36,698 bases of DNA from a virus. Shown piece after piece: positions 1-36,644 of this stretch. The notes under the pieces are model-generated. The model saw only the letters and a list, made by a program, of their open reading frames with translations. It made no database searches and was not told where the DNA came from. The DNA lies in IMG/VR virus record IMGVR_UViG_3300038701_002117, positions 1 to 36,698 of that record. The stretch is one strand, 5' to 3'. Positions within the stretch are counted from its first letter, which is position 1. Each line of letters begins with the position of its first letter. A program made the translations under genes and the position numbers.

Positions 1-76
1 GGCTCGCTGGTATCCCTTCGACATGCTGCGGAAGGTGACGGACGACGATTTCAAGCCGTGGTATTTCGATGAGTGA
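1..76 (+). CDS. RecE-like exonuclease, C-terminal end (gene broken by the window boundary)
   Basis: This is the last stretch of the exonuclease gene that is present in full at 35484-36644. The reading frame enters from the left edge and ends WYFDE followed by TGA at 74-76. Base 1 differs from the equivalent base near the right end; everything from base 2 onward is identical. It is a linearisation artefact of a circular molecule, not a second gene. The stop overlaps the ERF start at 69 by 8 bases, so the two recombination genes are translationally coupled. Confidence 0.93.
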   Translation, partial: ARWYPFDMLRKVTDDDFKPWYFDE

Positions 77-127
77 GACGAAGAACCTGCCGACCGCGCC
101 AGCTCCGGCGCGGTCTCAGGCGATGGA
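2..127. repeat. Left copy of 126-bp end duplication
   Basis: Bases 2-127 are identical to 36570-36695. The flanking bases differ on both sides (base 1 g versus c; after 127 gct versus ttc). The repeat lies inside two overlapping coding sequences, the exonuclease end and the ERF start, and each is completed only by joining the ends. The simplest reading is an assembly overlap from a circular or circularly permuted genome. A true short direct terminal repeat is possible but would have to sit in the middle of an operon. Confidence 0.9.
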
Positions 128-4648: not shown

Positions 4649-6019
4649 TCACGCCTTCGCGCCTAGAAGAACCGCGAGCCCGCCGTTGAAGTTTCCGGAC
4701 ACAAGGTCGACTCGGAACGGAAACCCGACGCTCAAATCAACGGACAGCACGCTGTCCACATAGCGAACCCCGGAGCCGTGGCTGTAGACAAGATCGCCGG
4801 CCGTGTCCCGATAGCAGAGCCGCCACGTCGCCGATGCCCCCGCCCCCTTGCCGAGCGAGATTTCAATTTCGCCGCTGAGGAGGGAGTTTGCGTCGGCGTC
4901 CACTGGATTCGTGAAGGCCACGTTATCGCCGGCGAAATAAAGCCTGCGGTTCGATGCGTCGAACACGTTAACAGCGCCGGCGCTTTCACCGCCCATAAAC
5001 ACGCCTTCATGAACCTGGGCGCCTGTATCGTATCCCCCCGCGCCGTCGCCGAATTCAATTCCGACGCTGGTGTCCGTGTCGACAGTGATGCCTGACAGGA
5101 GCATTTTGAACGAAGTGTATCCAGGGAAGTCCGACGCTTCGACTTCGAAATCGCCGATGGGCGATCCGCCGGTGGGCTCCCACCTGGTCAGCTCGGTGAA
5201 CGCCACCCGGTTCTCATATCCGGTTTCGGCCGCGTTCGCCGTCAGAACCTTGCCGGCGTCGCCGGTGGAAATGGACGGCACGTTCAGACCGGCCGCGTAG
5301 CCTTGCGCCTTGTTTGACCAGTGCTTGGCCGAGTAGTCGTCAACGCCGTCTCCGCCGGCCGCCACCGAGACCAGCGAGTCCTCCGCCTTGTTCGCCCACT
5401 CGGCCGAATATCCGACCGTCGTTTCCGCTTCATCGGCGAAGCCCGAAGCATCGCCAGCCGATCCGGACGCCGCCGCCGCCGACGCCGCCGCCGCCGTCGC
5501 GCTCGCCTCGGCCGCGTCCACGTTCGCGTCGATATTGTCCACCGCGTCGCGGTCGATATCGAACGCCGGGACGCCCGATCCGTTCGTTGCCATGATCTTG
5601 TTTGGCGTCAGCGGAATCGGGTCGATCACGTCGTCAGTGGAGCCGACGCGAAACACCCGGCGAACCTGCGTTGTGACGTATTGAGCAATCCTGACGATGC
5701 GGTCCAGCTCATCGTTGACCGCCGCGCTGGAGAAGCCGCCGCGGAACGCAAGGTCCGTCGTCCTGGCCGCCGGCTGAACGTAGAAAACCGCGTATGTGGT
5801 CGAGCCGTCCGCCGGCGTGGTGAGCGTGATTGAGCCGGTGGAAGTGCCGACGCCTGAAACGGTGTAATCCGCGCCGAGCGACAACGGAGTCTCGCCGCCG
5901 GCGCTCGAATAGACTTCGATGTGGGCTGAGCTTTCGATGAAGAAATCCAGCGAAATGACGCTCACGCCGTTCGAAGGCGTGACAGGTCCGACGAGAAGGT
6001 CATTCAGAGCTGCGGTCAT
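4649..6019 (-). CDS. Tail fibre protein with T7-like N-terminal domain
   Basis: The 456-residue protein begins with a tail-attachment domain like that of the T7 fibre gp17 (about residues 1-150: a beta-rich region with SITLTTPADGSTTY, then AAVNDELDRIVR before an Arg-rich strand). An Ala-rich, coiled region of repeated AEASATAAAASAA type (about 170-200) likely forms the trimeric shaft. The C-terminal 180 residues are beta-rich and probably bind the receptor. GGAGGG at 6023-6028 fixes the ATG at 6019. It follows the internal virion proteins, as in T7-like genomes. Attachment-domain identification is good; receptor specificity cannot be read. Confidence 0.83.
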   Translation of the reverse strand: MTAALNDLLVGPVTPSNGVSVISLDFFIESSAHIEVYSSAGGETPLSLGADYTVSGVGTSTGSITLTTPADGSTTYAVFYVQPAARTTDLAFRGGFSSAAVNDELDRIVRIAQYVTTQVRRVFRVGSTDDVIDPIPLTPNKIMATNGSGVPAFDIDRDAVDNIDANVDAAEASATAAAASAAAASGSAGDASGFADEAETTVGYSAEWANKAEDSLVSVAAGGDGVDDYSAKHWSNKAQGYAAGLNVPSISTGDAGKVLTANAAETGYENRVAFTELTRWEPTGGSPIGDFEVEASDFPGYTSFKMLLSGITVDTDTSVGIEFGDGAGGYDTGAQVHEGVFMGGESAGAVNVFDASNRRLYFAGDNVAFTNPVDADANSLLSGEIEISLGKGAGASATWRLCYRDTAGDLVYSHGSGVRYVDSVLSVDLSVGFPFRVDLVSGNFNGGLAVLLGAKA

Positions 6020-6020
6020 T

Positions 6021-8504: not shown

Positions 8505-10978
8505 ATCAGACAGACTCCAAGCGCCTCGGCGAATTCGTCGTCCGCCTCCAGCTCGGCCGCCAGCTCCTCGCGCGTCATCGTCCGCACTCCAGCCTCGCCG
8601 TCCTCCAACGTTTGCTCCACCGGCACGTCGTCCAGCAGGTCGAGCTGGTTGCGCTGCGCCTCGTCAAACAGACCGCCCTCCGGAGGAGGAGAGTCGCCGC
8701 CGCGCATGGCGCGCTCCTGCGCCGCCGCAGCGCGGTCTGCGTCCGTCACTGGTGCGACGCCCTCGATAAGCGTTTGCGTTCCCTCCGGCGTCTCCTCGGT
8801 CGCCGTAGTAACCACGCCCTCCTCCCGCGCCTTGCTGGACGGTGTGAGCTGGTCGCGGGTGTTGGCTACCTGGCGCGTCACCCCTTCGCCGTCCGGCTCC
8901 GAGAACGAGGCAAGCGCCCCATCAGGAGTCGAGCCGCCCGCTCCGCCAGGTTCTGCACTGCGTCCGACGCCGCCAGCTCTCTCCCCAATTCCGCCATTTC
9001 GCTCAATCTCTCGGAGGATGGCGTCTCCAACGGACCTCGCGGCGTCGCCGAGCCGTCCGGTTTCCTTGTATTTTCTGGCGGCATTGTTCAGAGCCTCCGA
9101 CACTGGCCCGGCGCGATGCGCCGATTTCTTGATGGTGACGAGCGCGGCCTCGGTCGCCTTGCGCCTCGCCTCGTTCGTCGTCGCGTCTAGCCGATTGCCG
9201 GCCCCTTCGATAGTCTCCGCCTGATCGGTGAGAGTCTGGAACACGCGCCGATCCTGCGCCAGATTCCGCAGCGCGCGCTCCAGAACCTTGGCCCGCTCGC
9301 CGAACAGACTTTCCGCGAACTCTCGCTCGCCGAACAAGTCCAGCTCCACGCCGCGCTCCACCGGAGCCTCCATCGCCTGGCGAATGACCGTCTCCGCCTG
9401 CTCGGTCGTCTCCGGCTTGATCCGCTCCAGGACTCGCATGATGGGAGCGTGGAGCGATTTATCGCCGACCAGGCGGCCGACCGCGGCCGCGTATCTCTCC
9501 GGGATTACCTCGTTGATGTAGAGCCCGAACGCATCGTCCGACAGCTCCGCCAGCTCTTTGGCTCGCGCGACGCCAGGTCCGGCAGGGAGCTGGTCGAGCT
9601 GGTCCGGCGCGACGCGCAAAACCTTGGCCGCGTCCTTCGCCATTGCGGCCGTCATTCCGTCCGCCGCCTCGGTGATGTTCTTCATTGCGGCGATTACGCG
9701 AACGTCCTCGGCCGAGAACCCGTCCGCCTCTCGAAACACCTTCGCCGTGAGCCTGATACTCGAGTCCGGGTTTTGCTCCAGGAGCCGACGCGCCAGGGCC
9801 GTGCGCTGGTGGCCGTCCGCAACAGCCATCCGGCCGTCGTTGTATTCGAAAAGCACGGTGACTCCGGCCCGCTCCTGACGCCATTCCGTCACGCCCCGGA
9901 GCTTCGCCGTGACGCCGCCCGCGTCCGCGTCGCTCTTGAACTGAAACACGTCCGGCTGGACCTCGATTTCGCGCGGATCGACCAGGACCAGCTCGCCAAG
10001 CTCGGCGCGCGCTCCGCCTTCGAACAGCGGCCGGTCGGTGGGCGCCGGTCCGGTCGGGTCGGACTGCGCCGCCAGCGCCGCTTGCTGCCGTTCGCCATGT
10101 TCGCGAACCGCCTTCCCGTCTCCTGGACTGGCAACCGCCAGCTCCTCGTCCGCGATATCGCGCTCCACCACCGCGGCCGCGGCGCGCGCCGCCGGACTCT
10201 CCGACCGCTTCCCCTCGGCGACCGCCGCCTTTTTCTTCTCGCGATTCATCAGCGCGCCGCCGCCGATCTGTAGCGCCTTCACCGCGCCGCCGAGAAACGC
10301 GCCGCCGACGAAAGCCGTCGCGGCGTTCATTCCGATGGATTGCTCCGTCAGGCCAAGCTCGCGCCGGAACTCGTTTCGGAATGGAGTCGTCGCCGCCTCG
10401 GTCCCGGCCGCCAGGCTTCCCTCTACAAGCGCCGTCGCCAGGATGCCGGCGCGCGCGCCAGCCCCAACCGGCAGAGTCGCGATGGTTTCAAGCCCAGACA
10501 TGGACGAGACCGTCGCGCCGGCGAATGCGCCAAACGGCGCTTGCTCCGCGACAGCCTCGTTTTTCCTGGTCCGATCCGCCAGGCGCTTCCGCATATCGTC
10601 CAGGCGAGTCTGGATTGCGCCCGGTCCAGCCTCCTCCGGTAGAGATATCCCAAGCTCGCGCAACTCCAACTTCAGCTTCGCCAGGGTCGAAGCTCGCGGC
10701 AACATTTGCTGGTCCAGCAGCTCTTGCGACAGCTCCGGCGAAACCCTCGGCCCATCGTATCCGCCGCCCGGCGTCCATGGCAGGAGCGCGCGCCCCTCCT
10801 CCGACATGGTGAAATCCAGGAACGGCTTGTAAGCCTCGCGCCGCAGCTCGGTTGATGACGTGAGCCGGTCAACCTCCTGGTCAACCTGAAACCCGGCCTC
10901 GTATCCTTCCCCGAAGGTGACGCCGCCGAGCGATGGCCGATCCGCCCGAACCGGAGCGAGCTTGCCGACTCCGCTCAT
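8501..10978 (-). CDS. Large virion-associated protein with ParB-like domain
   Basis: The 825-residue protein belongs to the ejected-protein block. Residues about 150-245 are Gly/Ala-rich and hydrophobic, suitable for channel or membrane contact. Residues about 325-445 form a ParB/sulfiredoxin-like domain: VDPREIEVQPDVFQFK, then FEYNDGRMAVADGHQR (377-392) and a following helix-rich part. DGHQR is the diagnostic loop of the ParB-N fold. Related ParB domains occur in polyvalent proteins that phages and conjugative elements inject with their DNA. The C-terminal third is acidic and low in complexity. Overlaps with both neighbours (ATGA) show tight co-expression. Enzymatic activity (NTP binding or nuclease) is inference. 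Confidence 0.78.
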   Translation of the reverse strand: MSGVGKLAPVRADRPSLGGVTFGEGYEAGFQVDQEVDRLTSSTELRREAYKPFLDFTMSEEGRALLPWTPGGGYDGPRVSPELSQELLDQQMLPRASTLAKLKLELRELGISLPEEAGPGAIQTRLDDMRKRLADRTRKNEAVAEQAPFGAFAGATVSSMSGLETIATLPVGAGARAGILATALVEGSLAAGTEAATTPFRNEFRRELGLTEQSIGMNAATAFVGGAFLGGAVKALQIGGGALMNREKKKAAVAEGKRSESPAARAAAAVVERDIADEELAVASPGDGKAVREHGERQQAALAAQSDPTGPAPTDRPLFEGGARAELGELVLVDPREIEVQPDVFQFKSDADAGGVTAKLRGVTEWRQERAGVTVLFEYNDGRMAVADGHQRTALARRLLEQNPDSSIRLTAKVFREADGFSAEDVRVIAAMKNITEAADGMTAAMAKDAAKVLRVAPDQLDQLPAGPGVARAKELAELSDDAFGLYINEVIPERYAAAVGRLVGDKSLHAPIMRVLERIKPETTEQAETVIRQAMEAPVERGVELDLFGEREFAESLFGERAKVLERALRNLAQDRRVFQTLTDQAETIEGAGNRLDATTNEARRKATEAALVTIKKSAHRAGPVSEALNNAARKYKETGRLGDAARSVGDAILREIERNGGIGERAGGVGRSAEPGGAGGSTPDGALASFSEPDGEGVTRQVANTRDQLTPSSKAREEGVVTTATEETPEGTQTLIEGVAPVTDADRAAAAQERAMRGGDSPPPEGGLFDEAQRNQLDLLDDVPVEQTLEDGEAGVRTMTREELAAELEADDEFAEALGVCLI

Positions 10979-13530
10979 TTCAGCTCGCGAAGGTCGATTG
11001 TAAACATGCCTTCCCCCTTTCCGTCGTCGCGGATGAAATACGCGCCGTTCTCATCGAGCGGAACGAACACATTCGGATTCCCCGGAATCGGCTGAAGCGT
11101 CTCGATAGAGTTTCGCAACGCCTCCACGCTGAGGAAATCGCCGAACGCCGTAACAACCCGGCCGCGCGCGAGCCTCACCAGGTCATCCTCGGTCAGCGCC
11201 TCCAGCGCCGCCTCGATCCGCTCGCCGGTCCAGCCCGCCGGCGCGATGGTGTCGCCGTATGATCCGGCGTTCTGCGGTCCGCCTGTTCCGTCCGGCTGGC
11301 GGCCGAGCGCCACGGCATAGCCGGCCGCCAGGTCGTCGGTCGAAACCGGGCGCCCACCGTCCCGAGCCGCCACGGATCGCGCGTAAGACTGCGCCGCCGC
11401 GTCCACGTCCGGCAGGCTGGACGGCGCGAGAATGCCAGACGCGAGGAGCGATCCGACCTCCTGCGTTCGAACCATGACGGAATCGGAGCTGGACAGGTCG
11501 CCGCCCTTCACGTCGCCGCCTTCGATCATGGCGGCCGCCGCCGGCAGATTGCCGCCCGCGGCGATTGCCCCGGCGCGGCGCAAGTCATCCCCCGCCATGC
11601 CGAGCTGCTTCAAGGTCCGCTCCTGCGACGCCTTGTCCATCGAGCCGATGGCCGAGAAGAACGCCGCCCTATCCTCCGAAGTGGCCGCCCGCAACGCGAT
11701 CCCGATTGCGTGAGCCTCGCCGTCGCGAAGCGCCGCCACGCCGTCCGAGCCCTCGCGCCGCGCCAGGTCGCCAAGGATCGCGGCCCGCTCGGCGATAACC
11801 TGGCCGACGCCAACCACGCCCATTTCCTCGGTGAACTCCGGCACTGGCACGTTGTAGGCTTCAGCCAGGTCCATGGTTGAGCCCGCCGCCAGCTCGCCCA
11901 CCCGATTTGAAAACTTCTCCAGGTTGTCGAGAACGCCGCTCAACACGACGCCTTCCGTTCCGAATGTCTGGCCCGCTTCATTCAGGTCGTAGAGCTGCGC
12001 GCGGAGCTGCTTCACCATGGCGTCGCGCTGCGCCGGCGACAGCGACGAAGCCTCGGCGATCGCTCGGTGGGACTCGCGCGCCGTGGCGACCATTTCGAGA
12101 AGGTCCGGATTCGATCCGGCGCGCCGCGACAGCTCGTCATAGAATCCAGGATCGAACGCCCGAAGGTCCAGCGCCGCGTCCAGCGCCGCGTCGATTCCGA
12201 TTTCGTCCGCCTTGAGCGCCGCCTGAAGGCGCTTCGCCTCGCCCTGAAGGTCCGCGACCACGCCAGCCTTGACCGGATCGAAGTCGCCATTTTTCACGTC
12301 GTCCGCCAGCTCGGCGCGAAGGTCGGTAACGTATGAAATCACTTCCGGCCCTGACATGCCCTGCGTCGCCACTCGCGCGTCGGCCGTGGCGAACAGGACA
12401 GCCGCCGCCTGTGATTTCTTTGGATCGTGCGCCAGGAGCCCCAGAATCCTGTCCCGCTCCTCCTGCGGCGGCGCGACGTAAACCCCCGCCTTGTCCAGCG
12501 CCAGATATGGCGCAATGGCGCTGCTCGCTTCATTCTCGAGTCTCGCCTCCTCGCGAGCCCTGGCGGCCCGAGCCTCGGCCGCCCTGGCGCGGATGCGCCC
12601 CTCCATGTGGGAAATCAGGCGCAAGCCCTCGCTCGCCGTAAAAGGAGTCTGGCCGGACAACAGGTTCGCCTTGAAGCGCCGCAGGTAGTCGGCCGGCGCG
12701 CGGCTTTCTTCGAACTGGTATTGAATCGCGACGCGCTGCGTCGACTCGTCCAGCTTCTCCAGGCTCTCCGCCAGGTCGAACGCGGACAGAATGTTCGCCC
12801 GGCTGTCATCCTCCGGATATTCGACGCCGCCGAGCGTGAACGCCTCGCGCGGCCCATACTGCGCCAGCTCCGCCTGCGTCGCCGCAATCTCCTCGGAGAC
12901 CATGCCGCCGCTCGCGCCGTTGAGAACCAGGAGCCCGAGCCGCTTTTCCGCCGCCTTGAGGGACGCCGCCGCCGCCTCGCGCTGGCGCTCCACCGCCTTC
13001 TCCTGCGCTCGCGCAATCGTCCGCGTTTCCGCGGCGACGCCAATCCGCATCATCTGGCCGGTGATGCGCGCCTCGATGCCGGGAATTTCGCTGTCAGTAG
13101 CGCCGGCGAGCGCCGCTTTGCGGGCGGCCGCAAGGCCCGCCTGCATAAGCTCCATGTCGCCGTCAGCCTGCATGACGGCCGCCTGCGCCTCCACCGCGAA
13201 CGCGCCGGAAATCTTGGCTTCAACCAGGCGATTGGCCGTCTCATTGTAAGCCCGGTTGCGGATCGTGAACGGGAATCGGTGACGCGCCTCGCCAGCATCC
13301 ACGTCGGCCGCCGCCTCCGCCTCGCCGCGGCCGATCTGGTATTCCTGAACAATCGGCTTTGCCACCTGGTTGATAAGGTCGAAGCCCTCGGCAATGCGCC
13401 CATAGACCTCGCCTCGGCCGTTGTATTCCTCGGCCGATCCGACGCGGACCGCGACAGGCGAGGGAACGCCGCCGGCGGCCGCGACGCGAAGCCCGGCCGA
13501 GAAGGTTTCGAACGTCGGCGCTCGCCTCAT
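10975..13530 (-). CDS. Internal virion protein, gp15-like, 851 residues
   Basis: This is the first and largest of the three big internal-protein genes. It is almost wholly helical, rich in Ala, Glu and Arg, with long coiled segments (about residues 150-215 and 305-330), as in the T7 gp15 type of tubular core protein (747 residues in T7). No catalytic motif is visible. The C-terminus (VPLDENGAYFIRDDGKGEG) is a small beta-rich tail. The ATG at 13530 overlaps the stop of the gp14-like gene, and its stop overlaps the ParB-domain gene. A role in the conduit that carries DNA through the cell envelope is inferred from position and composition. Confidence 0.75.
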   Translation of the reverse strand: MRRAPTFETFSAGLRVAAAGGVPSPVAVRVGSAEEYNGRGEVYGRIAEGFDLINQVAKPIVQEYQIGRGEAEAAADVDAGEARHRFPFTIRNRAYNETANRLVEAKISGAFAVEAQAAVMQADGDMELMQAGLAAARKAALAGATDSEIPGIEARITGQMMRIGVAAETRTIARAQEKAVERQREAAAASLKAAEKRLGLLVLNGASGGMVSEEIAATQAELAQYGPREAFTLGGVEYPEDDSRANILSAFDLAESLEKLDESTQRVAIQYQFEESRAPADYLRRFKANLLSGQTPFTASEGLRLISHMEGRIRARAAEARAARAREEARLENEASSAIAPYLALDKAGVYVAPPQEERDRILGLLAHDPKKSQAAAVLFATADARVATQGMSGPEVISYVTDLRAELADDVKNGDFDPVKAGVVADLQGEAKRLQAALKADEIGIDAALDAALDLRAFDPGFYDELSRRAGSNPDLLEMVATARESHRAIAEASSLSPAQRDAMVKQLRAQLYDLNEAGQTFGTEGVVLSGVLDNLEKFSNRVGELAAGSTMDLAEAYNVPVPEFTEEMGVVGVGQVIAERAAILGDLARREGSDGVAALRDGEAHAIGIALRAATSEDRAAFFSAIGSMDKASQERTLKQLGMAGDDLRRAGAIAAGGNLPAAAAMIEGGDVKGGDLSSSDSVMVRTQEVGSLLASGILAPSSLPDVDAAAQSYARSVAARDGGRPVSTDDLAAGYAVALGRQPDGTGGPQNAGSYGDTIAPAGWTGERIEAALEALTEDDLVRLARGRVVTAFGDFLSVEALRNSIETLQPIPGNPNVFVPLDENGAYFIRDDGKGEGMFTIDLRELK

Positions 13531-25231: not shown

Positions 25232-26851
25232 TCAGTCGAAAACGTCAAAATCAACGTCCGCCTCGCTGGTCTGGTCCTCAAGTCCGGGACCGTGAAGCTC
25301 CACCAGCTCACCGGCGCCCATGAGCCCATAGCCGAGCGCATCGCATGGGTGGCTTTCGTCGTTCTTCGACGGCTTGTCCATGAAGCGGGATTCCCCGGCA
25401 ACCTGGACGCGCCGGAAATGCCAAGCGCCTTGCAGTCCGCGGCGCAGCGTCGGGCATTCCGTCCGGTTGAGGAGGAGCCCCGGCTTGCCGTCGATCATCC
25501 TGGCGCAAGGCGCTGATATCGCCCTGGTCCGCAACTTTATGTCTTGCGTCGGCGCGGGCTGGACCGCCAGGCCGTGCTTGCTGGACAGGTAATCGAATCC
25601 CGCCGTTTCGAAAATCTCGTCACGGCTCGCGCCGGCCGGGTCGCCGTAGATCGGGCCGACCATGCCGCGCCCAACATGCGAGGGAAACCGGCGCGACAGA
25701 TACGCCGTGCATTCCTCGCCGAACCGCTCCAGCCCCATATCGGAACCGATGGTTTCGCCGTGAATGAGGTAAGGTCCGCGCGGGTGCTGTTGAAACCAGA
25801 CCGCGGCCGGCTGGAGCGTTCCGCCCCCGATATCCATTCCGCCCTGTATCGGCACGTCCTCCAGGACGGGCAGAGACTCCCGACTGTGCGCCTCATCGTC
25901 GTATTCCGGGACGACTCGCTTACCGTCCGCCACGAAGGTGTAGACGCCTTGCAGGTAGCTCCGAATCTCCTCCAGGAGCTTACCGGCGAGCGCCTGGCCG
26001 TAGTAGGAAAGCCGGCCGATGGGATTGCGGCCGGGCGCGACCTTCGACAGCGCGATATGGTTTTCCGCCCACGGATTCACGATCCACTCGCGGCCGGCCG
26101 CGGCGATGACCTCCACCGGACAGCGCACAACCTGGACCGAGCCGCGGTAGGTGCAGAGAACGTCAGCATGATCGAGCCGCAGTCCGTTCCATCGCGGGAA
26201 GTTTTCATCGGTGATGATGACCGCATCGCCCTTCGCCCGCTCAACCTCCAGGACGCCAGGCGGTTGCGACCAGAACTTGAATCCCTCCGGCGTGTCCTTC
26301 ATGTGCCAGTTGTGGAGCCAATGGCCCACGTCAGGCGGGTTGCTATCCAGCCAGACGCCGCGCCAGGTCGTCGGCCGTTCGTTGATCCGGTATCGGCCGA
26401 CACGCTCCGACAGGCGGTTGATGACGGTTCGCGGAACCTCCCGAGCCTCGTTCACCAGCGCCGCAGTCAGCTCAAGCGAGAGGAGCTTTTTCACGTCCTG
26501 CGGCTTGTCGAGCGCAACGAAATTTACCTCTGCCTCAATGCCTGGCCACCGCAGCTTGATCCCTGGCGGCGACGCCCACTTGATCGAGCCGAACGCGCTT
26601 TCCGGATAGATGTTATCGAAGGTTTGCGCCGTGGTTGATTTGAGCTCCGGATATGTATTCCGGACGACTGCGTATCTGGACCGGCGAACACCGTCAGGCG
26701 ACGCCGCTTGTTCCCCCGCAATGTCGCCAATGCGGAGGATCAATGGAACGGATTTCCCCGAGCCCACCGGACCGAGACAGCCGGCGAGCGGCGCGCGGCT
26801 GTTCTTGAACTCGTAGGCGACAGGCGAGCCGGAGAAATCCCATTCAGGCAT
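25232..26851 (-). CDS. terL: Terminase large subunit
   Basis: The 539-residue packaging motor has an N-terminal ATPase with Walker A GPVGSGKS (27-34), Walker B LTAALVNEAREV (128-139, with E135 as likely catalytic carboxylate) and a coupling motif LDSNPP (168-173). The C-terminal nuclease domain has D340 in GGMDIGGG, D404 in YGDPAG and D504 in HPCDALGYG, which would bind the two metals that cut concatemers. Length and order are normal. The ATG overlaps the preceding gene by 8 bases. The small subunit lies about 5 kb upstream rather than next door. Packaging mode (headful or site-specific) cannot be decided. Confidence 0.92.
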   Translation of the reverse strand: MPEWDFSGSPVAYEFKNSRAPLAGCLGPVGSGKSVPLILRIGDIAGEQAASPDGVRRSRYAVVRNTYPELKSTTAQTFDNIYPESAFGSIKWASPPGIKLRWPGIEAEVNFVALDKPQDVKKLLSLELTAALVNEAREVPRTVINRLSERVGRYRINERPTTWRGVWLDSNPPDVGHWLHNWHMKDTPEGFKFWSQPPGVLEVERAKGDAVIITDENFPRWNGLRLDHADVLCTYRGSVQVVRCPVEVIAAAGREWIVNPWAENHIALSKVAPGRNPIGRLSYYGQALAGKLLEEIRSYLQGVYTFVADGKRVVPEYDDEAHSRESLPVLEDVPIQGGMDIGGGTLQPAAVWFQQHPRGPYLIHGETIGSDMGLERFGEECTAYLSRRFPSHVGRGMVGPIYGDPAGASRDEIFETAGFDYLSSKHGLAVQPAPTQDIKLRTRAISAPCARMIDGKPGLLLNRTECPTLRRGLQGAWHFRRVQVAGESRFMDKPSKNDESHPCDALGYGLMGAGELVELHGPGLEDQTSEADVDFDVFD

Positions 26852-27791: not shown

Positions 27792-28472
27792 TCAAGCGCC
27801 AGGCGGCAAGAGCGCCTGTGTCAGCGTCACAGTCCCGCCCGATGACTCGGTGAAGTCATTCATTCCCCACAGGTCCTCGCCCTTCACGCCCCCGTTGTTC
27901 AGGATGCGATAATCGTTCGCGCCGGGCGAATATCCCGTCACGTCCTTCCACTCGCCGCCGCCGGCGCTGGAGAAATTGCCGGCCGATGGAGCTTGCTGGC
28001 CCGTCATGCGGATTGGATCGTAAATCGTTCCCTTGAACGTGTTGTCCGGGCCGTCGTCCTGGCCCCAAAGGTGCGACGTGGAGCCGGTGAGCTGCGCCGC
28101 GCCGGCCGCCACGGTATCGACCAGCGAGCCGTTGATGTAGATCGGCGTGGAGCTGGAAAGCCATTGTGTGCAAACGTGATACCAAGTCTCGGCGGCAATG
28201 CTGATCGTCTTTTCGGTGTTGTTCGCTCGGATGACCAGGTTTCCGCCTGACGTGATCCACCATTGCTCCAGTCCGCTACCTGAAGCGAAAACCGAGTGAT
28301 TGATGACCGGAGTCGGACCGGAATAGACCCACGCCATATTCGTGGACACGGACAGACCGCCCACCGTCGCGATGAAACCGTGGCCCGCTGACGATCCATC
28401 GAAGGTCGCGGCGTAGCCGTCGAGCGCCGGAGCGCCCGCGGCCGATGCGTCAAGGAAGAATGGATGCGTCAC
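27792..28472 (-). CDS. Concanavalin A-like / LamG-type lectin protein
   Basis: The 226-residue protein has the beta-sandwich pattern of LamG/ConA-like lectin domains. After a short lead, FDGSSAGHGF and NMAWVYSGPTP form strands, TISIAAETWYHVCTQW and PIYINGSLVDTVAAG give the signature WYHV and Y-x-NG-x-L-V strands, and a KGTIYDPIRM strand follows. Such domains bind carbohydrates. It ends the adhesion module and overlaps the DUF4376-like gene. A role in binding capsule or lipopolysaccharide is likely, though it could decorate the head rather than the tail. Confidence 0.78.
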   Translation of the reverse strand: MTHPFFLDASAAGAPALDGYAATFDGSSAGHGFIATVGGLSVSTNMAWVYSGPTPVINHSVFASGSGLEQWWITSGGNLVIRANNTEKTISIAAETWYHVCTQWLSSSTPIYINGSLVDTVAAGAAQLTGSTSHLWGQDDGPDNTFKGTIYDPIRMTGQQAPSAGNFSSAGGGEWKDVTGYSPGANDYRILNNGGVKGEDLWGMNDFTESSGGTVTLTQALLPPGA

Positions 28473-29083
28473 CGCTCGCCCCGGAACACCGCCCCGACCT
28501 CGGCCGGCGTGGTCGCCGATCCGTCCTCAATCGCCTCCTGCGCCAGCCGCTCCTGATTGTAGGCGCCCATGATCGCCGATTGGACCGCGGCCGCGATGGC
28601 GCGGAACTCGTCATGCGTCACCAGGCGCGAGACGCCGCCCGCCTTGAAGGTGAACGGCTCCGGCAGCTCGCCGGTCGCCATCGCCACCTTTAGACCGAGG
28701 AGCGAGCTTTCATCCTCGCGGTCGCTATCCACGTCCAGCTCCAGCGTCTCGTCCCGGCGCTCGATAGTCACTCGCGTGACCTTCCTCGCCGCGTCTCGCA
28801 GACTCCTGGCGTGAGCCAGCAGCTCGTCCGCCGTGGACTGCCGCGTCAGCCACTCGCGAACCACGAACGCCGACTTGGGCGGCAACGTGAGCTGGTGGCC
28901 GATGACAACGGCATCCTCCGGCCGGTCCTGATCCTGGATGGGATAAACGCCGACCTCGCGCAGCTTCGCCCGCTCCCATAGCCGCAACACGCTGGCCGGG
29001 TGCTGGTTGTCGTCCGTTCCTGTGAAGCCGCGATTGCGCGACAGCTCGCGGATTCCGCCAGGCGTGACCAGCGCGAACGTCAT
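28469..29083 (-). CDS. DUF4376-like protein, possible fibre assembly factor
   Basis: The 204-residue protein has an N-terminal beta-rich part with LREVGVYPI and, at about residues 112-195, a DUF4376-like pattern: ELDVDSDRED at the F/D-x-D position, a helix with LLGLKVAMATGELPEPFTF, then TFKAGGVSRLVTHDEFRAIA and AIMGAYNQERLAQEAI. DUF4376 proteins are often coded next to tail fibres and may chaperone or cap them. Overlaps both neighbours by ATGA. Family call is moderate. Confidence 0.68.
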   Translation of the reverse strand: MTFALVTPGGIRELSRNRGFTGTDDNQHPASVLRLWERAKLREVGVYPIQDQDRPEDAVVIGHQLTLPPKSAFVVREWLTRQSTADELLAHARSLRDAARKVTRVTIERRDETLELDVDSDREDESSLLGLKVAMATGELPEPFTFKAGGVSRLVTHDEFRAIAAAVQSAIMGAYNQERLAQEAIEDGSATTPAEVGAVFRGER

Positions 29084-30219
29084 GACATATCCCCTTTGAA
29101 GCCGATCCAGATTTCCGTGGAGCTGATCGCGTGATAGGGCACCGCGTCCTCGTCATCCGCCCCGGTCGAAAGCGTCGGAGCCGTCCCGCCTTCGAACTTG
29201 AAAACCGAGTTGAATGACAGCGTTCGCCCGCCCGTCGCGTCCTGGATGACGCGCAGCATTCCCGATTGCCCCTCCGGAACATTCGACGGCGCGCCGAGCG
29301 TTCGGTTGCCGCCCAGGGTCACTTCGAAATTCACGCCAGTCGACATATCCCACGCGATGGTCGCGGCGTCCGTCAGCTCCACCGCCGCCAGGTCCGGCGC
29401 GGTCGGGTCCGTCGTCCATTCGGTGTCGAAGTCCGTTCCGCTCGCTTTCGTGAGGCGCTGTCCGGTTGTCCCGCCGGCCGGAACCTCCACCGCCTTCCAC
29501 CTGGTCTGCGCCAACTCGGTGTCGATGGCCGAGACCATTTCCGCGCCGGTCTGGTCCGCGGTCGCGTTCGCCTCCGCCGGCCCGTTCGTCAGGTTGAGCG
29601 CATCCAGCGCGCCTTCATGCTGGACCACGCTCGCCTCGGAAATCCGCGCGCTCGCGAAAGTCCCGCTCACGATATCCGCCGCGCCATGCGTGTGGCCGAC
29701 TATCGCGAACGCCGTGCTATCCTGCGTCGCGGCCGAGCCGAGCCCGAGCGTCGCCCGCGCCGTCGCCTGGTCCGCATCGTCAATCAGCGTCGCGCCGAAA
29801 CCGGAAATCGTAGGCGTCCCGGAAAGGTCCGAATAGTCGCCGGACAGGCCGACCGCCGCGACACCCACCGCGGCTTGTAGCGCCGCCTGGTCCGCGAGAG
29901 CGATGAGCCCTTCGCCGTATGTGGTCGTCGTCACCTGCGTGTAGGTCCCGGAACCGTCCGTCCCCTTCAGGAGACCGATGGACGGGAAATCGCCATCCAT
30001 CAGCGCGCCGACCGCCTCCACGGTGTTCTCGTCCACCACGTCAGCGCCTTCGGTGATCGTGTCCAGCTTGGTAAGCATCGCGTCGAGCTGAGCGCCCGTC
30101 ACGCTGGTGTCCAGCGAGGAAAGCGCATCGCCCGGCTGAACGGCGCTCGCCGCAAGAGCCTCGGTCGCGTTCAGCTTCGCCCGAACGTCGCCGGCGTCCT
30201 CAAGGTTGTTGATCGTCAT
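29080..30219 (-). CDS. Second fibre protein
   Basis: The 379-residue protein has a typical fibre shaft: helix-breaking repeats such as LSGDYSDLSGTPTI, DADQATARATLGLGSAA and VGHTHGAADIVSGTFASARI (about 130-195), seen in many phage tail and head fibres. The C-terminal 110 residues are beta-rich, with AWDMSTGVNFEVTLGGNRTL and a final TEIWIGFKGDMS, a common fibre tip. It lies within the spike/Ig/lectin block and far from the T7-like fibre at 4649-6019, so it may belong to a head spike or a separate appendage. Confidence 0.8.
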   Translation of the reverse strand: MTINNLEDAGDVRAKLNATEALAASAVQPGDALSSLDTSVTGAQLDAMLTKLDTITEGADVVDENTVEAVGALMDGDFPSIGLLKGTDGSGTYTQVTTTTYGEGLIALADQAALQAAVGVAAVGLSGDYSDLSGTPTISGFGATLIDDADQATARATLGLGSAATQDSTAFAIVGHTHGAADIVSGTFASARISEASVVQHEGALDALNLTNGPAEANATADQTGAEMVSAIDTELAQTRWKAVEVPAGGTTGQRLTKASGTDFDTEWTTDPTAPDLAAVELTDAATIAWDMSTGVNFEVTLGGNRTLGAPSNVPEGQSGMLRVIQDATGGRTLSFNSVFKFEGGTAPTLSTGADDEDAVPYHAISSTEIWIGFKGDMS

Positions 30220-30641
30220 GGCGGATCGTCCCTCCAGATATCGCTGTCATCCCATCGCCCATCGTCGTTCCAGACGCCAGTCGCCACCAGCCAGGGCGCG
30301 CCGGCCGCCGTAACGCTGATCGCCGAGCTGGTCGCGCTCGCCGATCCTTCGCTGTTCGTCGCCGTCTCGGTGACAGTCAGGGCCGTGCCAACATCGGCGG
30401 AAACCGTCGTGTAGGTTGTCCCGGTCGCGCCGCTGATATTCGAGCCGTCCCGCTTCCACTGATAGGTGAAGGTGGGCGCCGGGTTTCCGCCCCACGTCCC
30501 GACGACTCGAGCAACGGTGTCGCCCTCCTCGGCCGTGCCAGGCGTGATCGACGGTGGAGCGTAGTTTTCGGGCGCGAGCGGTCCGCCGCCGTTTGGCGTC
30601 AGGTCCATGCCCAACTCCCACCCGAAACCAAGCTCCGGCAT
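30216..30641 (-). CDS. Ig-like domain surface protein
   Basis: The 141-residue protein has one bacterial/phage Ig-like domain at about residues 28-112, with PTFTYQWKRDGSNISGA and TVSADVGTALTVTETATN as the characteristic strands. Flanking Pro/Gly-rich segments and a Trp/Asp-rich C-terminus complete it. Phage Ig domains decorate capsids or fibres and add weak binding to host surface sugars. It is sandwiched between the spike-base and fibre genes, with TAATG and ATGA overlaps. Confidence 0.78.
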   Translation of the reverse strand: MPELGFGWELGMDLTPNGGGPLAPENYAPPSITPGTAEEGDTVARVVGTWGGNPAPTFTYQWKRDGSNISGATGTTYTTVSADVGTALTVTETATNSEGSASATSSAISVTAAGAPWLVATGVWNDDGRWDDSDIWRDDPP

Positions 30642-30904
30642 TAGACCAGGGCGACGATGTTCGTTGCGGTCGTGTTGGTCGCCATGACGTGGGAACAGCG
30701 CACCGGAATGATGGTCCCGACCGGAACGGCGACGAACGTCACCACGTCGCCCTCCGCCGTCGTCACCGCCAGGTTGCCAGCCCCGCCCACGTAGAGCGAG
30801 CGGCAGAACTCGGTCAGCTCGTTCGTGTCATGCGGCGTCACGGCAAAAGCCGTAACCGCCGGGTCGCCCAGGTCGTAAGATTTGCCGCGGTATCTGTCCG
30901 CCAT
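30641..30904 (-). CDS. Head spike base protein, RCAP_Rcc01079-type
   Basis: The 87-residue protein matches a family known from the Rhodobacter capsulatus gene transfer agent: FAVTPHDTNELTEFCRSLYV, then GGAGNLAVTTAEGDVVTFV, PVGTIIPVRC and the final ATNTTATNIVALV. In the transfer agent this protein forms the base of head spikes that bind capsule. Here it heads a block of Ig, fibre and lectin genes, so it probably anchors these appendages on the virion. Site of anchoring, head or tail, is inference. Confidence 0.8.
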   Translation of the reverse strand: MADRYRGKSYDLGDPAVTAFAVTPHDTNELTEFCRSLYVGGAGNLAVTTAEGDVVTFVAVPVGTIIPVRCSHVMATNTTATNIVALV

Positions 30905-30969: not shown

Positions 30970-31194
30970 TCATTCAGTCTCGTTCCAGCCGAGCCAGTGC
31001 CAGAACCCCGAGCCGTCGCGTTTCTGAAACCACTCGTAGGCTCCGGATCGCGTCTCGCGTTCTCTCGCGGCGTCGAACATGGACGGCGCGGCGTCATCCT
31101 CGAACAACTCCGCCTCCGCCTCGTATGTCCATATCGGCGATGCGCTGGTCAGATCGTCGCCGTTCTTCGGACCGCCAACGCATCGCCCCTTCAT
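30970..31194 (-). CDS. Hypothetical protein, 74 residues
   Basis: I do not recognise this protein. It is acidic in the middle (YEAEAELFEDDA) and aromatic at the end (YEWFQKRDGSGFWHWLGW). The start is ATG at 31194, sharing one base with the exonuclease stop (TGATG); a GTG one codon earlier is also possible. The gap to the spike-base gene (30905-30969) has no clear signal apart from that gene's ribosome site. Confidence 0.65.
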   Translation of the reverse strand: MKGRCVGGPKNGDDLTSASPIWTYEAEAELFEDDAAPSMFDAARERETRSGAYEWFQKRDGSGFWHWLGWNETE

Positions 31195-31781
31195 CACAGG
31201 CGCTCGGTCAAGGCGAAGTAGACGCGAGAACAGGCGCGCACGTCGTTGAACGCATCGTGTGCGCCTTCCAGCTCCTCATTGAAGAAATGCCGAACGCACT
31301 CCGCCAGGTTCGGCGACTTGAAGCCCGTCCGGCCCGACGCCACCATTTTCTTGGTCGGCGGAATCTTCGCCACCGGCTTGGCCTTCTCCATCGTGCAGAA
31401 GTGCATCGGCCGATCCAGTAGCTTGTCGTCCTCCTCGCTCCTGGCGAACGCCGAGCGCATGATATGAAGATCGAAAGCCAGGTTGTGCGCCACCAGCACG
31501 TCGCACCTGGCGAGCGCGTGACTGAACAGCGCAACAGCGCCGGTCTCGCGAACGCCGTAAGCGTCCGTCGTGGCGAGCGTCAGGCCGTGAACGTCGCTCG
31601 CCTGTTTCGGAACCGGAACTCCGGCCGAGACGATAAGCGACGCCATCGACAGCCAGCCGTGGTCAGTGCTGTGCAGCATGTAGGCGAGCTGCACCAGGCG
31701 CGGCTGTGCCGGGCTGTCCAGCGGCTTGGAGCGCGCCGGAAAGCCCGTGGTCTCGGTGTCAAAGAAAAGCGTTCTGGTCAT
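31194..31781 (-). CDS. DnaQ-like 3'-5' exonuclease (DEDDh)
   Basis: The 195-residue enzyme has all three exonuclease motifs: D8/E10 in FFDTETTG, AHNLAFD (98-104, D104 catalytic) and HDAFND (H175 general base, D180). This is the DEDDh set of DnaQ, RNase T and related enzymes, acting on 3' ends of DNA or RNA. There is no phage polymerase for it to proofread, so it may process replication or packaging ends, degrade host RNA, or assist the host enzyme. The ATG is preceded by AAGAGGGA and, further up, by a palindrome like that at 1276. Confidence 0.88.
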   Translation of the reverse strand: MTRTLFFDTETTGFPARSKPLDSPAQPRLVQLAYMLHSTDHGWLSMASLIVSAGVPVPKQASDVHGLTLATTDAYGVRETGAVALFSHALARCDVLVAHNLAFDLHIMRSAFARSEEDDKLLDRPMHFCTMEKAKPVAKIPPTKKMVASGRTGFKSPNLAECVRHFFNEELEGAHDAFNDVRACSRVYFALTERL

Positions 31782-31832: not shown

Positions 31833-32279
31833 TTAATCGCCCTCCTCGAACATGACTGGCGCGGGTAGCTCGCGTGGCGGCAAGATGCGCTGGACGCGAG
31901 GAGACTCGCCGTTCAGGTCATCCGGCCCGTCGTCGTCCTCCCTGCCCCAACCGAAATTGACCGCGAGAGTGAACGCAGCGCCGCGATGGCCCTCTTTCGA
32001 GTAGAGCATCATTTCAGCGAACTCCTCGACGCGCTCACGCGCGCGCGAGACGACGTGCGACAACTCCCCCTTGTCCCCGTAACGCAACAGCGTCCGGCGA
32101 TTGATGCCGAGCGCCGCGGATAGCCCGACCAGGGTAGGCGGCCGCAGGATTTTGAACGCGGGCAGGTCGCCGGACTCCTCATCGACCTCGCCAATGACGA
32201 GGCAGGAATCAAAATACTGATCCACCGCCGCCTGTAGCTCCTCGGCTGAGGAGAAAGCGAGCCGCCCGCGTTCCGCCAT
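31833..32279 (-). CDS. terS: Terminase small subunit
   Basis: The 148-residue protein has the usual small-terminase order: a start helix with EELQAAVDQYFDSC, a helix-turn-helix around PPTLVGLSAALGINRRTLLR, a coiled region (SRARERVEEFAEMMLYSKEG), then AAFTLAVNFGWG, equivalent to the common F-x-L-K-N-x-F-GW motif, and an acidic tail. It recognises phage DNA and starts packaging. The ATG at 32279 overlaps the previous stop (TAATG). A longer frame to 32393 is a shadow of the upstream gene. Confidence 0.85.
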   Translation of the reverse strand: MAERGRLAFSSAEELQAAVDQYFDSCLVIGEVDEESGDLPAFKILRPPTLVGLSAALGINRRTLLRYGDKGELSHVVSRARERVEEFAEMMLYSKEGHRGAAFTLAVNFGWGREDDDGPDDLNGESPRVQRILPPRELPAPVMFEEGD

Positions 32280-32635
32280 TATCCCGCCGTTTGCCTCCTG
32301 AATTCGTCGCGCGTCACTGTAGCGCCGCCCTCGGCGATTTGCATCGGCGAGCGAGATTCCACCTTGGCCTTGACGAGAAAGCGGCCGAGCCACGTTGCAA
32401 TGTAGGCCGCCAGGCGCTCCTCCATCGAGTGCGTTTCGGTCGGCTTGAAGAACTCGCGAACGAGCTTTCCGTGGCGCGCCTTGATCCGAATGGTGACGGT
32501 GAAATCCTCGGTGGGCTCCAGCTCCTCGCGGCCGGCCTCCTCCTCGGCGAGCGCCAGGGCCTCGGCGAGTCCGATCTGGTCGTGAGCCATCAGCTCCTCG
32601 GCCCTGGCGATGATTTTCGGGTCGGTCTTAGCCAT
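32279..32635 (-). CDS. Hypothetical protein, 118 residues
   Basis: I do not recognise this protein. The first half is acidic and helical (AEALALAEEEAGREELEP), then a beta stretch DFTVTIRIKARHGK and a final helix with AYIATWLGRFLVKAK. It lies between the initiator-like and small-terminase genes, with overlaps on both sides. It could assist replication or packaging. Confidence 0.7.
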   Translation of the reverse strand: MAKTDPKIIARAEELMAHDQIGLAEALALAEEEAGREELEPTEDFTVTIRIKARHGKLVREFFKPTETHSMEERLAAYIATWLGRFLVKAKVESRSPMQIAEGGATVTRDEFRRQTAG

Positions 32636-33398
32636 CCTTCGGTCCTTTCGTGATCCGCTTCATGTTGGCGATGTTCTTCGCCACGTCCGCAGGAACCTCC
32701 CGACCGCGTTTCGCGGGAAGGGAGGGAGGTTCGCCGGGCGCATCGCCGGCCGATTTTCCCTTGGTCGTGGTAGTGGTCGTGGTCGTGGTGTTGGTCGTGG
32801 TCGTGTTTTGGTAGTGGTCGTGGTCGTGTTCGTATTCCGGTAGGGTTATGGATAAGTCATCCGATAACCTTATCCGTAATGTATCCGAGAGACCGAACGA
32901 CGGGTCCGCGAAAAGCCTGGTCAGGTCGAAGTCTCGCACCAGGTCCGCGGCTTCCTGCATGAAGACGGCGCGCGCCTCCACGTCCTTGTCCCAACCGCGC
33001 GCCCTCTTGTGGATATCCACCACCAGCTCCAGCGCGGCGGCGTCTCTCGCGAAGCTGTCCGGCAGAACGCCGCGAATGATGCGAAGCGGTCCCGCCAGGT
33101 ATTTGCGACTCTTCACGCTGTTCCACCTGAAGAATCCGACAATCTGCAACAGCTCCTCGCTTTCGTCGTAGCGGATCAATCCCACGTCGCGGAGCTGGTG
33201 GAAGCTCCCGCGGATTTCGTCAGCGTCGCGAACCAGGTCCAGCGCCGCCAGCTCCGGCGGCATCACGAAAGCGCCGGCGCTGTTACCGTGCGGACTCGTG
33301 TGGAGATAGAGATAAGTGAACCTGGCCGCCGTGTCCGTCAGGGCTCGAAACCGTTTCGAGCGCCAGATGGAGCTGGAGATTATGCCGAACTCTCGCAC
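32628..33398 (-). CDS. Replication initiator-like winged-helix protein with poly-Thr tract
   Basis: The 256-residue protein has an N-terminal winged-helix domain at about residues 1-110 like those of phage replication initiators: SIWRSKRFRALTDTAARFTY, then LHTSPHGNSAGAF, a helix with LRDVGLIRYDESE and IVGFFRW. Residues 191-213 hold HDHDH followed by a Thr tract (T199-T202, N203, T204-T213), and then a basic tail. It would bind an origin and recruit the host helicase, which is inference. It starts with GTG at 33398. No phage helicase or primase is seen. Confidence 0.7.
   Translation of the reverse strand: MREFGIISSSIWRSKRFRALTDTAARFTYLYLHTSPHGNSAGAFVMPPELAALDLVRDADEIRGSFHQLRDVGLIRYDESEELLQIVGFFRWNSVKSRKYLAGPLRIIRGVLPDSFARDAAALELVVDIHKRARGWDKDVEARAVFMQEAADLVRDFDLTRLFADPSFGLSDTLRIRLSDDLSITLPEYEHDHDHYQNTTTTNTTTTTTTTTKGKSAGDAPGEPPSLPAKRGREVPADVAKNIANMKRITKGPKDG
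32760..32834. repeat. Hexanucleotide GTGGTC-type microsatellite inside the initiator gene
   Basis: Imperfect copies of GTGGTC (CACGAC/ACGACC on the coding strand) run through the region. Read in one register they give His-Asp, and after a CAAAAC interruption the register shifts by one base so that they give Thr-Thr. Length changes of one unit would preserve frame. Confidence 0.75.
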
Positions 33399-34858: not shown

Positions 34859-35487
34859 CAAAGCCCATGAAAATGGCGGGCTTTGTGAAGTATGGAGCGA
34901 TCAAGGCGTTTCTGCGGTGGGTGGATTCCCGCGGCGGAATCGTCCTTGAGCCGATCCACGACGCGGAGTTGGCGCGATTCTGCGCCGCTTCGCGGCTTCA
35001 CTCCATCGTCGCCGCCGGAGCCATGACGAACCCGGAGGGAAGTCACGCCTGGTTCGTCAACAACACCACGCTCGCGCTGTGGAACGCCTGGCGTGGAGTC
35101 AATCCACTGGACCGAAAGCCGATGGACCTTACCCCGGTCTATCATGACGTGGGTCCGTTCGCAGCGCGCAAGGCGCTTCGCAAGGCGGCCGCCAAGAAAA
35201 TCGGCGACCGCTGTTTCTACTGCGGTTGTGAATTCACCGAGGAGAACCAGGCGACGCTGGAACACCTTCTCGCCCTGAACACATGGGGATCGTTCGCATT
35301 CGAGAACTGCACGGCCGCCTGCGCCGACTGCAACAGCGCGGCCGGATCGGCCCACCTTATCGACAAATTCGAACTGCGCGACGAGCTGCACGTAGCCCGA
35401 GCCGGAGGAGCCAGCGAGGAGGAGCTGGCCCGCATTCGCGCCTACTTCATCGAACTCCACAAATCGCCAAGAAAGGCAGAGCTATGA
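34849..35487 (+). CDS. HNH endonuclease
   Basis: The 212-residue protein ends with a zinc-type HNH domain: C122/C125 (CFYCG), E138/H139 (EHLLA) carrying the catalytic histidine, N153 (FEN), and C158/C161 with N162 (CADCN) and H169. The N-terminal 110 residues are helical and probably bind DNA. The start is taken as GTG 34849, 8 bases after GGAG; GTG 34855, which overlaps the upstream stop, is the alternative. HNH enzymes in phages nick or cut DNA in packaging, recombination or homing. Coupling to the exonuclease gene (ATGA) favours recombination or replication here. Confidence 0.85.
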   Translation: MQVTKPMKMAGFVKYGAIKAFLRWVDSRGGIVLEPIHDAELARFCAASRLHSIVAAGAMTNPEGSHAWFVNNTTLALWNAWRGVNPLDRKPMDLTPVYHDVGPFAARKALRKAAAKKIGDRCFYCGCEFTEENQATLEHLLALNTWGSFAFENCTAACADCNSAAGSAHLIDKFELRDELHVARAGGASEEELARIRAYFIELHKSPRKAEL

Positions 35488-36644
35488 CTGACGAAGTAAT
35501 CGAGACCGAAGGCGAGGAGGTTGTGCGCCCGCGCGACTTTCCGGACGGAATCTATTTCCACATGGATGACGAGGAGTATTTCGCCGCGAAGCGCCTCGGC
35601 TCCGGCGACATTCGCCGGCTGAACATCAGCCCCGCCACCTATTGGTCGAAATCCCATTTCAACACCGACTCCCGCGACAAGCGGACCGGCGCGACCAATC
35701 GCGGCAAGCTGTTCCATACCGCCATCCTGGAGCCCGAGCTGGTCGCAAAGCGTTTCGCGCAAGCCCCGATGAAGGAGGAGCACGACGGACCGAAGAACGA
35801 TAACGAGGTTTGCGACGCGCTCGGCGAAATGGGTCAGACCAAGAGGGCGAAAGGGGAGAATGCCCTGGACCGCGCCGAGCGCCTGGCCAGTCTCGGCGGA
35901 CCGCGCGCATGGGTCATCGAAGAGGCGGCGTTCCAGGAACGTCTCGGCGGCCGGATCGCCATCGACTCGGCGACATGGGATGAAGTCATGCGAGACGCGG
36001 ACTCGCTGACCGACAACCCGGAGCTGGTCGAGCTGGTCGCCGGCGGCTTCGCGGAGGTTTCGCTGTTCTGGACGGACGAGGAGTCCGGCGTCCCGATGAA
36101 GGCGAGAATCGACAAGCTCAAGTCCGGCTTGCTGATCGACCTCAAGTCCTTCACCAATCCGCAGGAGAAGGAATTGGAGCGGATGCTGACCGAGCGCCTG
36201 GCGTATAGCGAATACGTCGTCCAGGCGCGCCACTACCAGCGCGGGCTCGGCTGGTTTCACGAAAAGAAACTCGGCGATTTCGTCACGGACGCCAGCAACG
36301 ACGCCGAGGAGTCGTTTGTCGCCCTGGTTTGCCGCACCGTGATTGACGTGTGGCGCCCGGTCATCCTGTTCCACGAAATGGGCGGCGTCCCGAACGTCGC
36401 CGCTCGCGAGCTGGAGTTTTACCGCCCCGCCCCTGGCATGGCCGAACAGGCGAGCGACGAAACCGAAGAATTTTACATGACGCGCTCGGCGATGACGGCG
36501 CGGGCCGACCGAAAAATCCGAACCGCCACCGTGGCGTATCAGAAGGCGCTGGAGCTGTATGGCCCTTACGCTCGCTGGTATCCCTTCGACATGCTGCGGA
36601 AGGTGACGGACGACGATTTCAAGCCGTGGTATTTCGATGAGTGA
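35484..36644 (+). CDS. RecE/exonuclease VIII-like PD-(D/E)XK exonuclease
   Basis: The 386-residue enzyme would degrade one strand of duplex DNA to expose tails for ERF. The early GKLFHTAILEP (74-84) is the conserved G-x-x-x-H loading helix. E191 (EVSLFW), R208/D210/K211 (KARIDK) and D219/K221 (LIDLKS) form the PD-(D/E)XK core, and YVVQARHYQRGL supplies the later QxxxY-type helix. The ATG at 35484 overlaps the HNH stop. A longer frame from 35283 is a shadow of the HNH gene. Its stop overlaps the ERF start, completing the recombination pair. Confidence 0.87.
   Translation: MTDEVIETEGEEVVRPRDFPDGIYFHMDDEEYFAAKRLGSGDIRRLNISPATYWSKSHFNTDSRDKRTGATNRGKLFHTAILEPELVAKRFAQAPMKEEHDGPKNDNEVCDALGEMGQTKRAKGENALDRAERLASLGGPRAWVIEEAAFQERLGGRIAIDSATWDEVMRDADSLTDNPELVELVAGGFAEVSLFWTDEESGVPMKARIDKLKSGLLIDLKSFTNPQEKELERMLTERLAYSEYVVQARHYQRGLGWFHEKKLGDFVTDASNDAEESFVALVCRTVIDVWRPVILFHEMGGVPNVAARELEFYRPAPGMAEQASDETEEFYMTRSAMTARADRKIRTATVAYQKALELYGPYARWYPFDMLRKVTDDDFKPWYFDE

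Follow-up and report, generated by a model that had tools for sequence, protein, structure and literature searches.

What is a gene for a spike base of the gene transfer agent (GTA) type doing between the two terminase genes of a virus, in line with genes for an immunoglobulin-like (Ig) protein, a fibre and a lectin? The question is raised by the IMG/VR virus record IMGVR_UViG_3300038701_002117, positions 1-36,698 of which (36,698 nt, hereafter the window) were analyzed here. Five intact open reading frames (ORFs) occupy 27792-30904 on the minus strand, a block of 3.1 kb that encodes, in reading order, a spike base, an Ig protein, a fibre, a DUF4376 protein and a LamG lectin. Every one of the four gene junctions overlaps, by 1-4 nt (TAATG, ATGA, ATGA and GTGA). 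Together with the family matches given below, this bears out the five-gene block proposed by a previous sequence-only reading, which had also placed the small and large terminase subunit genes about 5 kb apart; the measured TerS-TerL distance, cassette included, is 4.98 kb. We consider that the cassette probably encodes a capsid-vertex adhesion spike of a BPP-1/BcepC6B-like podovirus, made of a base pentamer, an Ig adaptor, a fibre, a DUF4376 chaperone and a LamG lectin.

The spike base (87 aa, 30641-30904) carries the argument. Over the full length of the NCBIfam model NF048002 ("spike base protein, RCAP_Rcc01079 family"; positions 1-85 of 85), it scored 100 bits (E=7e-29), where the curated cut-off is 28 bits. 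Rcc01079 (GhsA), the head spike base of the Rhodobacter GTA (RcGTA), was found by phmmer with the single sequence (E=9e-9) and with a 61-sequence profile (4e-20). The corresponding values for chain h of PDB entry 8cjz, from phage Carin1, were 0.003 and 2e-10. The AlphaFold2 (AF2) monomer model of the base (pLDDT 90.6) predicted the jelly-roll fold of the RcGTA base and superimposed on the RcGTA capsid chain 6tb9 with TM scores of 0.87/0.90, an rmsd of 1.5 and a VIA Z of 13.9 over 84 residues. It also fitted 8cjz, "Carin1 bacteriophage mature capsid", with a Z of 11.5, the next-best structure reaching 4.1. Thus the GTA-type identity claimed from the sequence holds, also in the comparison with Rcc01079 at the monomer level: sequence, curated family and predicted fold agree that the 87-residue protein is a true spike base of the RcGTA type.

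A special link of the cassette to GTAs, suggested by the sequence-only reading, was not borne out. At least 498 base relatives were detected in viral contigs, using a closer alignment set (A2), as the alignment of named-phage bases (A1) was too divergent for the contig scan. Named relatives are found in phages of Rhizobium, Rhodobacter, Flavobacterium, Verrucomicrobia and Edwardsiella. Since base relatives are spread across so many phages, RcGTA is one of many users, and a GTA origin was rejected for want of support: the family would be a broad phage family, of which GTAs are not the evident source. Nothing in the window, a virus record, points to a GTA, and for replication and recombination the window has genes of its own (Erf, exonuclease VIII and a DnaD-like loader). 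Two side observations concern the same family. In Sphingobium/Sphingomonas genomes (L110-L112, around 7200-10500), a base gene lies after an endonuclease III-like gene and ahead of a gene of 736-745 aa, which carries a SASA esterase domain in L110; these may be head-spike loci in the chromosome, belonging to a GTA or a prophage. Two other loci (L041, 4636-5186; L042, 9643-12178) contain two or three base paralogues, two of them adjacent, ahead of a protein starting MQLNGLSLAIT.

Which protein does the base hold? In the RcGTA structure, the N-terminus of the head fibre, an alternating hydrophobic peptide, threads the base pentamer (PMC7296036). The window gene that follows the base encodes the Ig protein (141 aa, 30216-30641), whose start codon lies 1 nt inside the base gene. 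The protein begins MPELGFGWELGMDL, and its residues 4-14, LGFGWELGMDL (30600-30632), show an alternating hydrophobic pattern resembling the start of the RcGTA fibre. Comparable starts are encoded by the gene after the base in RcapNL (MGLGLGIGLGL), P8625 (MIGLGLDLSL), Edwardsiella ZHS (MIGLGLNIW) and Flavobacterium immuto (MYIGLGISL). A strict version of this pattern was present in 34 of 97 distinct base-adjacent genes, drawn from viral contigs, named phages and genomes, versus 8 of 1781 other genes of the same loci, for which later start codons were allowed (odds ratio 120, p=3e-39). A rule of exactly five hydrophobic residues per anchor was rejected as a strict rule, the commonest count being four. 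Proteins with the anchor peptide carry LamG domains (7 of 35) and, in single cases, SASA esterase, PA14, GLEYA, GDSL or sialidase domains, which is what receptor-binding parts would be expected to carry. By analogy with RcGTA and from this neighbour pattern, the base in the window probably anchors the N-terminal peptide of the Ig protein rather than the 379-aa fibre.

The Ig-like domain itself (about residues 23-112; 30306-30575) was matched by the Pfam families IG_AIR9 (E=8e-4) and Ig_3 (E=0.006), both below the Pfam cut-offs, and by PHROG families down to E=6e-13. Some of these are Hoc-like, and the Hoc-like similarity is confined to the Ig region. In locus L074, a base partner of 47 aa has the same kind of C-terminal ending as the Ig protein, described below, with no Ig domain; the Ig domain therefore has the appearance of an insertion that separates the anchor from this tail. 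The make-up of the Ig protein likewise resembles that of short adaptors in L131 and L201.

The C-terminus of the Ig protein reads WNDDGR-WDDSDI-WRDDPP, a triple W-x-D motif (WNDDGR-WDDSDI-WRD, 30228-30272) that is the only one of its kind in the six frames of the window. The window's tail fibre (4649-6031), whose N-terminus matches tail-protein families, has none and lies apart from the cassette, in agreement with the distinction drawn from the sequence beforehand. The next gene of the cassette encodes the 379-aa fibre (29080-30219), which has an N-terminal motif DAGDVRAKLN (30169-30198) of the R-x-x-L-N type. When scored within the first 45 residues, R-x-x-[LIVM]-N was found in 44 of 62 genes following a C-terminal W-x-D tail and in 32 of 1963 controls (1.6%; odds ratio 147, p=5e-55). 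R13 and N17 of the fibre motif are invariant in alignment A6. Three hexads were counted in 7/7 distinct cases of the first scan, where a third was not required; among all 47 cases, including those of a second scan that required three tryptophans, 45 have three hexads, in two the third tryptophan comes without its acidic partner, and a fourth hexad was never seen.

Loci outside the motif-scan selection gave a smaller count in the same direction: 2 of 39 R-x-x-[LIV]-N genes follow a W-x-D tail, versus 0 of 2426 other genes. One, L144, was retrieved with the Ig protein as query; of the six patterns in that query, one came from a portion of the W-x-D tail, from which L144's own tail differs. The other, L201, was retrieved by fibre similarity alone. 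It encodes a base (E=3e-13), a 37-aa adaptor, MNFILGLGIL...YWGDGELWDDDGEWVDEDD, and a fibre with VREKIN. Independent base-adaptor-fibre triads were found in L124, L131, L132 and L201; in L131, genes for a LamG protein (8e-28) and a tail assembly chaperone (Phage_tail_APC, 2e-19) come after the triad, so that the same five component classes as in the window occur in an independent contig. The 379-aa fibre is thus most likely docked one step beyond the Ig protein, a sequence-based assignment that corrects the earlier reading.

These pairings bear on another explanation, namely that the cassette joins two unrelated units: the base and Ig protein would form a Hoc-like capsid decoration, and the fibre, DUF4376 and LamG proteins an alternative tail-fibre set on the tail. 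The Hoc-like similarity of the Ig domain favors this, as does the fibre's C-terminal domain, which occurs in tail fibres of other phages. However, all cassette junctions overlap, the Ig W-x-D tail and fibre R-x-x-L-N form a recurrent neighbour pair, and base, adaptor and fibre are kept together in independent contigs, one of them with LamG and chaperone genes. We regard two separate units as improbable.

The 379-aa fibre matched phrog_4757 (1e-10) and phrog_2282 (tail fiber, 2e-7), no PDB match to it was obtained, and tblastn revealed its C-terminal domain in cyanophage and roseophage fibres. The 204-aa protein (28469-29083) matched DUF4376 (PF14301, E=7e-8) and, weakly, the tail fibre assembly family phrog_188 (E=0.01), with no tblastn match in named phages; it is probably a fibre assembly chaperone. 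The 226-aa LamG/concanavalin-type lectin (27792-28472; PF13385, Laminin_G_3, E=5e-9) is probably the carbohydrate-binding part.

Is the spike on the capsid? The two solved particles with a base homologue, RcGTA and Carin1, are both capsid entries. Among the upstream neighbours of base genes in 58 scanned loci, portal, major head protein, adaptor and TerL/terminase families lead (the families overlap, hence no total is given), and in Flavobacterium phage immuto the base gene comes immediately after that for the major capsid protein. By analogy with these particles, the spike is likely placed on the capsid of the window phage as well. The self-contained capsid adhesion apparatus put forward in the sequence-only reading thus stands in part: the genes form one cassette of receptor-binding-like make-up that recurs in L131, the capsid site being assigned by homology.

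Alternatively, the cassette might encode an accessory adhesin of the tail or neck, the base homologues being generic ring-shaped bases that are tail-attached here. The base family is labelled "tail fiber protein" by PHROG, W-x-D tails are present on tail and neck proteins too, and in RcapMu, RcapNL, P8625 and RcWaterboi the base gene closes the tail cluster, coming after tail genes. Against this stand the two capsid structures, the predominance of head and packaging genes among the annotated upstream neighbours, the position of the base in immuto and, in the window, the large distance between the cassette and the tail genes. A tail or neck location is therefore unlikely in our judgement, if slightly less so than the division into two units.

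A capsid spike would be assembled as follows. Five copies of the 87-aa base would sit on one capsid pentamer, as in RcGTA. The alternating hydrophobic N-terminus of one Ig protein would pass through the pentamer of bases, as suggested by the RcGTA structure and the gene-neighbour pattern; the Ig domain of this protein would project outward and its C-terminus would present the three W-x-D hexads. These may hold the N-termini of the 379-aa fibre via R-x-x-L-N, judging from their recurrent adjacency, and three hexads would suit a trimeric fibre, with one hexad per subunit. The DUF4376 protein may aid assembly or folding of the fibre, and the LamG protein may contribute carbohydrate binding. Whatever its orientation, such a spike could catch surface polysaccharide, and this before the tail binds its own receptor.

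Several points weigh against this reading, besides the position of the base after tail genes in the four phages named above. The proposed capsid spike of the window phage is deduced from its genes and from the predicted fold of the base; the fibre trimer is an assumption, and the AF2 model of the fibre failed (pLDDT 35). About two thirds of base-adjacent genes lack the strict anchor pattern, some through wrong start calls. They comprise near misses, wrong starts and loci where a portal, protease or head-tail adaptor gene follows the base, names that were read from the sequence and only in some cases searched. One residue per base pocket is inexact, because the window anchor has six alternating hydrophobic residues, including a tryptophan, and four are commoner than five across homologues. 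The p-value for R-x-x-[LIVM]-N is descriptive, as the criterion was set after the first loci had been inspected. Moreover, W-x-D tails also occur without a GhsA-type base, on tail/neck proteins or in the company of small base-like proteins of another kind, and the W-x-D dock is therefore not capsid-specific. Finally, W-x-D and R-x-x-L-N could just mark fibre operons, with no mutual contact.

The sequence search of PDB chains gave no match to the W-x-D tail or to a relative's fibre dock, hence the proposed contact has no solved example found. Searched against named phages, the W-x-D peptide gave two weak matches only, one of them in roseophage CRP-143, within its tail tubular protein B. Possibly, W-x-D tails and R-x-x-L-N fibres make up a general fibre-docking pair. 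In many phages that lack a GhsA-type base (L202-L319, e.g. L251, L284 and L308), short triple-W-x-D proteins precede R-x-x-L-N fibres and lie beside small base-like proteins of other kinds. No description of the pair was found in a partial literature search, and neither was the two-ended adaptor, which appears recurrent in the sequences.

Compared with the RcGTA head spike (GhsA Rcc01079/GhsB Rcc01080), the cassette is a more complex variant set in a podovirus genome. Both have homologous bases of the same predicted fold, a base-neighbour gene beginning with an alternating hydrophobic peptide and a likely carbohydrate-binding role. However, RcGTA anchors one 325-residue fibre directly, whereas in the window a short Ig adaptor, ending in the W-x-D motif, precedes a separate fibre, a chaperone and a lectin, an organization shared with the L131 module. 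The Carin1 spike base belongs to the same family, in a mature capsid entry; no paper on Carin1 was found in the partial literature search. T4 Hoc and Hoc-like decorations similarly have an Ig-like domain, in the window probably on the head, and PHROG similarity to it, but according to PMC10385173 Hoc attaches to the capsid by its own C-terminal domain, while the proposed anchor of the window protein is its N-terminal peptide in the base, its C-terminus being the W-x-D tail. The turrets of HFTV1 consist of turret base and turret head proteins with a carbohydrate-active outer part (PMC12494034). Compared by description, they too are two-part head appendages, but they stand on capsid hexamers, combine a hexameric base with a trimeric head and belong to an archaeal virus.

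If the assignments are right, a spike known in detail from one GTA becomes a widespread and modular phage system. The proposal states which protein is anchored and which docked, and its short motifs allow recognition of the anchored partner, adaptor and fibre in unannotated phages. The base family, often annotated as "tail fiber protein", would be given a correct label. Symmetry mismatch at spikes is largely beyond cryo-electron microscopy because of fibre flexibility. We tentatively suggest, with somewhat more doubt than belief, that one short protein serves phages in general as a five-to-three symmetry adaptor: its N-terminal peptide would fill the pockets of a pentameric base, its three hexads would each take the R-x-x-L-N of one subunit of a trimeric fibre, and bases, spacers and fibres would be freely swappable. 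A true three-hexad dock would be a sequence-level answer to how one chain puts a trimeric fibre on a five-fold vertex.

How did the cassette come to lie between the terminase genes? The nearest core genomes are Dunaliella viridis virus SI2 and the IMG/VR records L010 and L011, with MEP301 and BcepC6B farther away. SI2 has 18 of the queried window proteins in common, with gene order kept (TerL 59% and major capsid protein, MCP, 65% identical), while BcepC6B shares TerL, portal, p827 and the tail fibre N-terminus. Homologues of TerL, connector, MCP, tail tube and internal virion genes occur in order, as in BPP-1/BcepC6B-like podoviruses. The window shares the core genome of these podoviruses and SI2 but differs in its spike block, as TerS and TerL lie close together in them (gaps of 0.77 kb in SI2, 0.69 kb in L010 and 1.77 kb in L011). 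No base was detected in the SI2, L010 and L011 records, L010 being a 10-kb fragment. Therefore the cassette is an accessory insertion here or was lost by the others; judged from these genomes, it is accessory in this phage lineage. The SI2 record (HQ332136), named after Dunaliella viridis, is a phage sharing the window core genome, and an algal host seems unlikely.

The lack of a base in these relatives might also suggest a recently acquired, moron-like passenger with little role in adsorption. The five ORFs, however, are all intact, overlap one another and share their strand with the structural genes, and their G+C content (0.63-0.66) follows that of the surroundings. Such a passenger is very improbable, far more so than the two alternatives discussed above, and the adhesion spike remains the preferred reading.

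On the minus strand, the block is flanked by TerS (31833-32393; GP3_package, E=1.5e-12) and TerL (25232-26851; phrog_2, E=6e-11). The TerS-TerL interval also contains a 75-aa ORF, three small ORFs and an RNase T-like exonuclease gene (31194-31781), between TerS and the spike block, whose product resembles DNA polymerase exonuclease subunits. A promoter scan of the cassette region gave no signal above chance. The Erf and exonuclease VIII genes, neighbours in SI2, lie at opposite ends of the window (1-848 and 35283-36644). The record may therefore represent a circularly permuted genome that is almost complete; it showed no terminal repeat. The stretch 6021-13530 encodes three proteins in succession, of 827, 825 and 851 aa. 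They probably belong to the interior of the virion, and there was no PHROG match for that of 851 aa. Finally, a TGGTCG-type tandem repeat (32762-32843) within the DnaD-like replication gene encodes a stretch in which Thr, Asp and His abound.

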